Shown: positions 8,892 through 33,813 of the stretch, piece after piece
Numbering within the stretch: the first letter of the stretch is position 1
How the letters are laid out: every line of letters starts with the position of its first letter
From: Alkalicoccus daliensis
GTDB lineage: Bacteria; Bacillota; Bacilli; Bacillales; Salisediminibacteriaceae
DNA length: 64,000 bases
Direction of reading: 5' to 3'
Assembly: GCF_900103955.1 (NCBI RefSeq)
Contig: NZ_FNIL01000002.1
Span: 204,475 to 268,474 of the forward strand
Translations under genes and position numbers: made by a program
The notes under the pieces: generated by a model
What the model saw: the letters and a program-made list of their open reading frames with translations, nothing else
What the model was told of the DNA's origin: nothing
Databases searched by the model: none

Positions 8892-9007
8892 TTGTTTTTC
8901 CTCACTTTAAATTTTATGTATTGGATGAAATTGATTTTATAAAGGTTGCTTCCCCTTAGTAGGGCATCTTTCATTTTATCATTTTAAAAGTTACCTTGAA
9001 AATAAAA

Positions 9008-9165
9008 GTTCCGCTAAAAAGAAGTAAGACTGCTGCTTCACTTTCGGAGCGGCTTCCCCAAGGGCTTGTTCTCGACTAATTTTGACGGAAAAAACGTCCG
9101 CCCAAATGGATTCTCCAGCTGCGCTCGTGCGTCCTCTCCTTCGTTACACAGCAGTATTAATTTTC
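9008..9165 (+). repeat. interspersed intergenic element, scaffold family B, copy 1
   Basis: From the TTCCGCTAAAAAGAAGTAAGACTG region to the end of TTAATTTTCATAC this stretch matches, on the opposite strand, positions 33622-33790 nearly throughout. Shared pieces include CCCAAGGGCTTGTTCTCGAC, GGATTCTCCA, CTGCGCT, CGTCCTCTCCTTCGTTACAC. A central inverted repeat around the ATTTTG...CAAAT segment is imperfect here but perfect in the other copy. The whole 8892-9583 interval holds no convincing gene. Confidence 0.75.
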
Positions 9166-9185
9166 ATACTTTTTTAAAGAATATA

Positions 9186-9440
9186 GAAGCCAAGGGGATT
9201 TTTCGAGACGCCTGCGGGAAAAGAAAGCGTGAAGATCAAAGGTTCGTCTCGAACTACAGACGAACTCGTAAAACAGGTGTGCAGCCAGCCGGGATCTTGA
9301 ATCCAAGCAAGGCGGTTGGATTGGCTGCGCGGAACCCTGATTATTCCGAGGGGATAGCGGAAGGATTTCTCCGCGGCAAGCGAAGAAAAAAAGAGCCGCA
9401 GGCGTACCTTTCTTATATCAACACCTGCTTTAACAGAGCC
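9186..9440 (+). ncRNA. structured element A, copy 1
   Basis: A closing helix of 10 perfect pairs (9208-9217 with 9396-9405) encloses about 180 bases. Inside are a hairpin of 8 pairs (9242-9249 with 9258-9265), a hairpin of 7 pairs (9300-9306 with 9316-9322) and CAGCC (9286-9290) facing GGCTG (9323-9327), which could nest outside the 7-pair hairpin; a further pairing of GGGATCT with GGAACCC would make a pseudoknot. A second copy at 33322-33590 keeps the same helices with different sequence. Invariant single-stranded stretches include GGATTTCTCCGCGGCAAGCG and ATATCAACACCTGCTTT. The RNA class is not recognised. Confidence 0.75.
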
Positions 9441-9583: not shown

Positions 9584-10006
9584 ATGGAAAAACAATTGGA
9601 AGCTCTGCTTGCGGGAGCCTGGGCAGCAGCGCTCGCAGCGACACTGGGATCTTTATATTTCTCGGAAATTATGGGGTTTGTGCCCTGTGAACTCTGCTGG
9701 GTCCAACGGATATTTATGTATCCACTTGCGTTGACTTTGGCAATTGCCACTGTGAAAAAAGACGCGAAGCATGCGTATTATGCGCTGCCGCTTTCTATCA
9801 TCGGCGCTGGTTTTTCAATGTATCATTATTTGATTCAGAAGGTGCCGGCACTGCAGGAAGCTGGAACGGCCTGCGGCATTGTCCCTTGTAATGCCCAGTA
9901 CATAAATGTATTTGGGTTTATTACGATACCGTTTCTAGCGTTTACTGCTTTTACAATTATTTCTGTGCTGCTTATTTTTGTGATTATTGTGGATAAAAGG
10001 AGATAG
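9584..10006 (+). CDS. bdbC: disulfide bond formation protein, DsbB/BdbC family
   Basis: 140 residues with four membrane segments. The redox pairs are C35-x-x-C38 (CELC, followed by WVQRI) and C97...C102 (CGIVPC), as in DsbB-like quinone-linked oxidases. It reoxidises an extracytoplasmic thiol oxidase and passes electrons to menaquinone. The ribosome site is GGGGAGAGG. A thioredoxin-like membrane protein gene follows after 4 bases and is the likely partner. Confidence 0.92.
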   Translation: MEKQLEALLAGAWAAALAATLGSLYFSEIMGFVPCELCWVQRIFMYPLALTLAIATVKKDAKHAYYALPLSIIGAGFSMYHYLIQKVPALQEAGTACGIVPCNAQYINVFGFITIPFLAFTAFTIISVLLIFVIIVDKRR

Positions 10007-15957: not shown

Positions 15958-16002
15958 ATAGAGTGGAGTAGGGAGTACTGCTTCTTCAAAATATGATAGT
16001 GT

Positions 16003-16135
16003 TTTCCTTCGCTTTCCGGCGGAAGCTTGCCGTGGGGTTGTCTTCAGCTCTTTGGAACACCTCCTGGCATTCCAAAGGATCTTTAGACAGCGCTTTATCC
16101 CACAGGCGTCACCGCCGGACGCTTCGAAGAAACAT
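16003..16135 (+). repeat. scaffold family B element, copy 3
   Basis: Contains CTTCGCTTTCCGG, GTTGTCTTCAGCT, a central hairpin CTTTGGAA/TTCCAAAG with 12-base loop, then GGATCTTTAGACAGCGC, CACAGGCGTCACCGCC and GCTTCGAAG. The flanks TGTCT and AGACA also pair. The rest of 15958-16368 holds no gene. Confidence 0.7.
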
Positions 16136-33013: not shown

Positions 33014-33049
33014 TGAATTAGCTCTGTTAATGCTCGTTATTGATAAGAG

Positions 33050-33280
33050 AAAACTTCACTAGCCTGCCGTGGACGAGCTCCTTCGCTGTGATCTGCCGAG
33101 TTCGTTCTTCCAGAGGCTGTGAGAACTTTCTCAGCCGAAAGCTTTTACGTAGCCGACCAAAGGATTTTAAAGTCATCTTCACGATCTCTATAAAGATGAA
33201 TGCTGGTCGGGTGGAGCAATGCTCTCTCTAACACAGGCGTCCACCGGTTTTCGCTTCGTTCTTCCTTTTTAAAACAAAAG
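33050..33280. repeat. B-like intergenic element, diverged
   Basis: Holds AGCCTGCCGTGGACGAGCTC, an inner hairpin TCATCTT/AAGATGA with a 13-base loop, and CACAGGCGTCCACCGG near GCTTCG. These pieces parallel the ends of the element at 16003, but the centre is rearranged. No gene is evident. Confidence 0.5.
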
Positions 33281-33321
33281 ATAGGGACTGTTCCTTTCTA
33301 CTTTCTTCTCCTAAATAAAAC

Positions 33322-33590
33322 AAAGCCAAGGCGAGTTTTCAAGACGCCTGCGGAAAAAGAAAGCGTGAAGATCGAAAGTTTGTCCGGTCTCTGGACAAAC
33401 TTACAAAGGAGGAGTGAAGCCAGCCAGGGTTTTGAATGTTCGTAAGACGGTCTTGGTCTTACGAACATTGGCTGCGCGAAACCCTACTCTCTTGTAAGGA
33501 GGGATAGCTGAAGGATTTCTCCGCGGCAAGCGAAGAAAAAAGAGCCACAGGCGTAGTTTCCTTATATCAACACCTGCTTTTAACAGAGAC
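33322..33590 (+). ncRNA. structured element A, copy 2
   Basis: Outer helix 33344-33353 with 33545-33554 (one mismatch). Hairpin AAGTTTGTCC (33376-33385) with GGACAAACTT (33393-33402). Hairpin AATGTTCGTAAGAC (33435-33448) with GTCTTACGAACATT (33456-33469). CAGCC (33421-33425) pairs with GGCTG (33470-33474), and AGGGTTT (33426-33432) with AAACCCT (33479-33485), crossing to form a pseudoknot. Each helix also exists in copy 1 (9186-9440) with different bases. No protein gene is associated. Confidence 0.78.
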
Positions 33591-33621
33591 ACTCATGTAA
33601 AATTTTTGCACCATGAAGTAT

Positions 33622-33790
33622 GAAAATTAATACTGCTGTGTAACGAAGGAGAGGACGCCCAAAGGACTAGCGCAGTTGGAGAATCCATTTTGGCGGACGT
33701 TCTTTCCGCCAAAATTAGTCGAGAACAAGCCCTTGGGCAAGCCTCTCCGAAAGTGAAGCAGCAGTATTACTTCTTTTTAGCGGAACTTTT
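33622..33790 (-). repeat. scaffold family B element, copy 2
   Basis: Reverse complement of the element at 9008. The central hairpin is perfect here: ATTTTGGCGGA pairs with TCCGCCAAAAT. It abuts element A, as does the copy at 9008, but element A is flipped relative to it. Confidence 0.75.
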
Positions 33791-33813
33791 GTTTTCAAGG
33801 TAGCTTACAAATA

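Follow-up and report, generated by a model that had tools for sequence, protein, structure and literature searches.

MITEs that form stable hairpins are familiar in bacteria, according to the available parts of two accounts (PMC10969869, PMC2229807) that also treat BOX, ERIC and CIR, short structured repeats of other lineages; compared by description, the CIRs resemble the element reported here in that a linker connects their two inverted-repeat arms. Among the studied repeats found, the closest parallel, again by description, is the set of repeats bcr1-bcr18 of the Bacillus cereus group, which the available part of the source presents as intergenic Bacillus repeats, some of them MITE-like and some conserved in structure (PMC3446304). 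A 2008 survey, as far as its available part goes, gives Bhal-1 of Bacillus halodurans as a 74 bp repeat of 36 copies, placed in an intergenic class and predicted to form a common stem-loop (PMC2267715). In the accessible portion of another report, a member of the IS1595 family of insertion sequences yields A/T-rich direct repeats of 8 bp, and 7-9 bp is cited for a subgroup (PMC12561309).

The repeat analyzed here occurs in the window, which is the whole stretch of 64,000 nucleotides of Alkalicoccus daliensis DNA that was examined. On balance, it is probably an IS1595-type MITE whose inverted arms carry a hairpin module spread through the order Bacillales, a module that is itself likely maintained as a DNA palindrome and not as RNA.

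Copies of the repeat in the window

The first-pass annotation had described a structured RNA-like element in two unlike copies, and both are present in the window with a closing helix and internal hairpins as described (all window features are given on the plus strand). The helices are indeed kept with different bases: the copy 1 hairpin at 9241..9266 pairs GGTTCGTCT (9241-9249) with AGACGAACT (9258-9266), and the copy 2 hairpin at 33376..33402 pairs AAGTTTGTCC (33376-33385) with GGACAAACTT (33393-33402), each being covarying helix 2 of the long-form alignment. The word GGATTTCTCCGCGGCAAGCG is common to both copies, in agreement with the claim of invariant strands, and inside the element no protein gene is present. 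The feature is therefore real as annotated, but its extent is not, since the interval 9186..9440 is only the right arm, or half, of a longer element.

Two covariance models were used for locating the parts: R1, built from the left arm (74 positions), and R2, built from the right-arm core. The long-form right-arm core of copy 1, which comprises the closing helix and hairpins noted earlier, lies at 9206..9407 (R2 match 9206-9406, E 2e-19), with AGACGCCTGCGGG at 9206 and CCGCAGGCGTACC from 9396, and is followed by the right terminal inverted repeat CTTTAACAGAGCC at 9428..9440, identified from its sequence. Copy 1 is without a left arm and left end; at that point its linker adjoins a piece of another repeat (repeat B), and a search with R1 near copy 1 gave no left-arm match. 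The open reading frame just downstream (9584-10006, plus strand) may encode a small DsbB/BdbC-type membrane protein, judging from a resemblance seen by eye.

Copy 2 is a two-ended element at 33021..33590, with left end GCTCTGTTAATG and right end CTTTTAACAGAGAC; no flanking direct repeat was found around it (4 of 9 bases agree). It contains a left-arm module, the hairpin that recurs across the order, at 33064..33118 (R1 match, E 1.7e-09) and a right-arm core at 33342..33556 (R2 matches 33342-33399 and 33466-33555), which is an inverted, diverged copy of the module with the long-form hairpins. A third, single copy of the module at 16002..16132 (R1 match 16027-16108, E 1.2e-07) possesses an outer palindrome of its own, and ends of the IS1595 type were not seen around it. 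The predicted folding of copy 2 is better than chance (z -3.48, equalled by 1 of 200 shuffles) and that of copy 1 hardly so (z -1.53, equalled by 16 of 200). In the long form of copy 2, a putative pseudoknot was noted by eye. The Rfam comparison proposed in the first-pass annotation gave no hits in the window at gathering score, with HEARO and group I and II introns included, and around copy 1 the seven matches at E up to 10 were every one far below gathering.

Repeat B occupies 33589-33804 in the window, with a shortened, inverted copy at approximately 8990-9169. It adjoins the terminal repeats of the present element (element A) at a fixed junction, CAGAG joined to ACACTCATGC and GCATGAGTG joined to TCTCTGTTAA; it has an inner palindrome of its own and lies beside element A ends in congeners too. 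At one locus (L037), a pair of A and B is bracketed by TTTTTTAAA on both sides.

A probable IS1595-type element without a transposase

Comparison of copy 1 with the host genome (3.78 Mb in 28 contigs) by blastn gave 59 pieces, and the left-end pattern with up to three mismatches occurs 53 times in that genome, against none for the reversed pattern as control. When oriented copies were aligned with their flanks, the conserved unit extended beyond the interval first annotated, and two-ended copies run from a start GCTCTGTTAAWG to an end CTTTAACAGAGCC over about 245-650 bp. The aligned copies fall into two forms: the long one has extra hairpins, and in the short one a small hairpin takes the place of the approximately 110 bases between the core halves. 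At the DNA level, relatives of copy 2 were detected in 6 of 7 congeners, whereas the 52 genomes searched outside the genus had none; a 20-base core word matched five stretches of Alkalicoccus chagannorensis, the sole named genome matched, and copy 2 had no match among plasmids and phages.

The left and right ends of 8 among 26 pairs are flanked by target duplications that match at 8 or 9 of the 9 bases compared (six of them exactly), a level of agreement reached by 2.45% of random partners; in 11 of the other 18 pairs, the flank is masked by repeat B at the right end. IS1595-type ends, with one mismatch allowed, were found in 29 of 35 genomes of the family. A congener (G007) has an intact element with ends GGCTCTGTTAAAG and CTTTAACAGAGCC and the 8-bp duplication TTTAAATT on either side, and the 358-residue protein that it encodes matches DDE_Tnp_IS1595 and the NCBI IS1595 family. 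This transposase has matches in 7 of 8 genomes of the genus, mostly fragments, and none in the host genome when used as the query; among the 53 left ends of the host, no transposase was seen between element ends. In another congener (G002), a facing pair of ends contains broken IS1595 pieces only. The broken IS1595-type element of that genome is on contig C7 (L155); the genome lacks element A at the DNA level but has 10 R1 matches.

The unit thus has shared terminal inverted repeats and an A/T-rich duplication of 8-9 bp, and no transposase inside, as IS1595-type MITEs do. Because its ends are shared with an intact IS1595 element, because 8-9 bp repeats flank it and because the host has no such transposase, the unit is, to judge from its sequence, likely a non-autonomous IS1595-type element.

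Inverted arms and an order-wide hairpin module

A profile built from 32 left arms only recognizes 41 of the 44 short-form right arms, always on the opposite strand (E 1e-8 to 0.04), and none of the shuffled right arms. As read from these matches, the element consists of a single hairpin module present twice, in inverted orientation and diverged, plus a linker. The module extends far beyond the genus: R1 matches 71 of 120 genomes sampled from the order, the host included, in 46 of 73 genera, and gives at least 30 matches in 10 of these 71 genomes (at most 40 candidates being scored per genome), and R2 reaches 5 of the 120, four of them weakly. In a sample of the class, 10 of 121 genomes have R1 matches, six of those being outside the order. 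With one order-wide module as the query, blastn found 13 plasmid records (Priestia 5, Peribacillus 3, Bacillus 2, Paenibacillus 2, Niallia 1) and no phage. A second, inverted match lies approximately 100-440 bp away at 12 of 69 loci scanned.

The module is also found in other settings. In one genome (G136) it lies between the IS1595-type ends GGCTCTGTTAAA and TTTAACAGAGCC, and an 8-bp duplication is seen by eye in 4 of 5 aligned copies. In another (G044) it lies inside a different repeat, with ends CAGACTGTTGACAAA...TTTGTCTACACACTG, of which six of eight aligned copies duplicate a terminator-like hairpin of approximately 20-28 bp, one does so imperfectly, and one has no visible duplication. 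The end pattern of this repeat has 98 matches in its genome (reversed control, 1), many of them as facing pairs approximately 200 bp apart, and its backbone may be IS1182-like. The loci inspected there (L300-L303, L322-L324, L249) present a MITE family of approximately 200 bp, bounded by CAGACTGTTGACAAA ends, in which the module is present and adjacent terminator-like hairpins are duplicated. By these sequence comparisons, transposon ends of at least two kinds carry the module, one of them in an unrelated MITE backbone.

Covariation of the hairpins

Covariation was counted in four alignments and compared with shuffles. In 21 long-form copies of the host (A1), 11 of 48 pairs are changed on both sides, compared to 3.1 in shuffles (none of 500 as high), and there are 17 doubly changed cells, compared to 3.2. 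These pairs are confined to three helices: five are in the hairpin quoted in the first-pass annotation, four in the next and two in the 3' hairpin. None of the pairs in the 10-bp closing helix shows a change on both sides, and pairing is absent from 15% of its cells. The 32 left arms (A2) have 24 doubly changed cells compared to 8.0 in shuffles, and five doubly changed pairs compared to 3.3, a number equalled by 27 of 500 shuffles; the 44 right-arm cores (A3) have 17 such cells compared to 7.1. Among order-wide modules (A4; 82 rows, 77 distinct), 226 cells are doubly changed compared to 64.9 +- 6.4 in shuffles, and 93.4% of cells are paired compared to 44-57% when the structure is slid along the alignment, with the proviso that A4 was fitted to the structure of the model, which biases it towards that structure, and that copies within a genome are related.

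Wobble pairs and the choice between RNA and DNA

Maintenance of one strand as RNA should leave more G-U than A-C cells. In the pooled Alkalicoccus copies the two are about equal (68 G-U and 74 A-C), being 15 and 17 in 44 short cores (pairs as in A3; 4/103 left out, 14 C-A), 25 and 26 in 21 long forms (36/61 left out, G-T in 16), and 28 and 31 in 39 left arms (25/47 left out, T-G in 28). SRP RNA, taken as the yardstick in place of tRNA (three distinct tRNAs), has 109 G-U and 22 A-C in 30 genomes of the order at pairs that are not usually G-U. Parity in the Alkalicoccus copies could alternatively reflect decay after insertion.

In the order-wide module, all 376 of 376 cells at 13 core pair positions are Watson-Crick in 29 genomes, 21 of them doubly changed, although the set consists of the top hit from each of the 29 outside genomes with the highest scores, a choice that favors intact pairs; over all 82 rows, the same positions have 1053 Watson-Crick, 2 G-U, 2 A-C and 4 other cells. 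When all 21 pairs of the model are considered in the 29 modules, there are 526 Watson-Crick, 48 G-U, 10 A-C and 20 other cells, the G-U count including a consensus U-G at columns 27/59 that is conserved in 76 of 77 modules; the remaining excess of G-U is mainly in the middle stem, where the alignment is uncertain.

The outer arms differ among genera, yet approximately 16 columns pair in 54 of 82 modules, and arms of unrelated sequence from different genera are still palindromic (on average, 14.0 of 22 positions compared to 8.9 with the arm of another locus). Isolated mismatches in 883 paired outer-arm columns are 1 G-U, 6 A-C and 34 other. The 34 outer arms that are strongly palindromic have 44 A-C cells and 1 G-U; two positions beside the core account for 36 of the 44 A-C, and these are taken as a fixed bulge, although they would be G-U when read on the opposite strand.

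Constraint thus appears to be nearly equal on both strands, and since the core helix pairs are almost all Watson-Crick, the module is likely kept as folded DNA and not as RNA. On this reading, a DNA palindrome would be the most likely explanation, a hairpin formed on two strands the second, and self-correcting arms the third.

Predicted mechanism and alternatives

In the explanation preferred here, an IS1595-family transposase that has since been lost from the host would have moved the element in trans by way of its ends. The module would be cargo, its value perhaps being that the same hairpin can form from either DNA strand, as a cruciform or as a single-stranded hairpin during replication; the sequence of the arms may drift provided that both sides change together, and copies would then decay at their landing sites. 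A narrower proposal, offered tentatively as one possibility, is that selection on folded DNA keeps the module palindromic, as a parasite-borne and possibly host-recognized cruciform whose arms co-evolve without wobble steps, both in unrelated backbones and in free copies. The conserved U-G is predicted neither by a pure DNA palindrome nor by self-correction.

A less probable alternative, and the strongest of the rivals, is an RNA hairpin folded by transcripts from either side, serving as a bidirectional terminator, an insulator or a stabilizer of mRNA ends. Selection would then act against wobbles and mismatches alike, because each wobble in one strand appears as a mismatch in the other; the conserved U-G is one of the inner pairs. 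About half of the bcr repeats of B. cereus are transcribed within longer transcripts, according to the available part of their description (PMC3446304). With respect to neighboring genes, convergent contexts outnumber divergent ones both for 39 host elements with open reading frames on both sides (13 and 6) and for 65 order-wide modules (18 and 6), but tandem contexts dominate both sets (20 and 41, respectively), and the counts rest on crude longest-frame gene calls and few background gaps (21 and 18). The lower number of divergent than of convergent sites is compatible with insertions being tolerated and also with a function at transcript ends; 2 of 69 module loci lie within an open reading frame of at least 150 amino acids. 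Relative to the genes, 15 host elements are on the same strand and 5 on the opposite, and 14 and 27 order-wide modules, respectively; because the reference strands differ between the sets, this strand bias was not used. Moreover, the G044 copies adjoin terminator hairpins that already exist.

Somewhat less probable again is that the arms correct each other by template switching during replication, in which case covariation needs no selection for folding. This would explain why the core has doubly changed pairs and scarcely any that are half changed, and why arms remain palindromic across genera although unrelated in sequence. Nevertheless, neither the conserved U-G nor the A-C positions fixed next to the core have been corrected, and words conserved across 46 genera require another reason.

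The first-pass annotation took covariation to imply selection on RNA structure, so that the MITE would be the vehicle of a one-strand structured RNA, and this now seems improbable. Covariation in all four alignments and the conserved U-G speak for such an RNA. The repeat, however, has transposon-type ends, target duplications of 8-9 bp and dozens of copies, the window has no Rfam hit, and the ratio of G-U to A-C, which is 5 in SRP RNA of the same order, is near 1 in Alkalicoccus, while the core of the order-wide module is entirely Watson-Crick in the selected genomes.

Two inverted hairpins with a spacer resemble a REPIN, and Y1 domains occur in 101 of 120 genomes of the order, but mobilization of a REPIN-like repeat by a RAYT (Y1) transposase is very improbable and was rejected, since the repeats do not flank Y1 genes (a single match, E 0.7, within approximately 2 kb on each side of 40 long Y1-domain loci, and none near 30 further Y1 loci) and the host genome has no Y1 match.

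Significance and comparison with known systems

Covariation is routinely taken as evidence of functional RNA, and here it is strong in a mobile DNA repeat; pipelines for RNA discovery applied to such genomes are likely to flag the module as a candidate RNA. Judged against SRP RNA, the relative numbers of wobble and A-C cells point away from an RNA of one strand. With the module in 46 of 73 genera, no Rfam match in the window and at least two types of ends, a role for the transposon or for the host becomes a testable question.

A literature search found no paper recognizable as describing the module, and a search with the core words gave no title on Bacillales repeats among the matches listed. 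Bhal-1 resembles the module in size, copy number, intergenic class and stem-loop, a comparison made by description alone, and may be the same repeat; the available part of the survey does not state an order-wide spread or transposon ends for Bhal-1 (PMC2267715). With IS1595-family insertion sequences and their MITEs, the element shares its ends, its A/T-rich duplications of 8-9 bp and a relative in the genus that is autonomous and has the same ends, and it differs from them in lacking a transposase and in having an interior that consists of two inverted, order-wide hairpin modules. What is new here, compared to these systems, is the order-wide module itself, its carriage by different transposon ends, and the nearly wobble-free covariation of its core.
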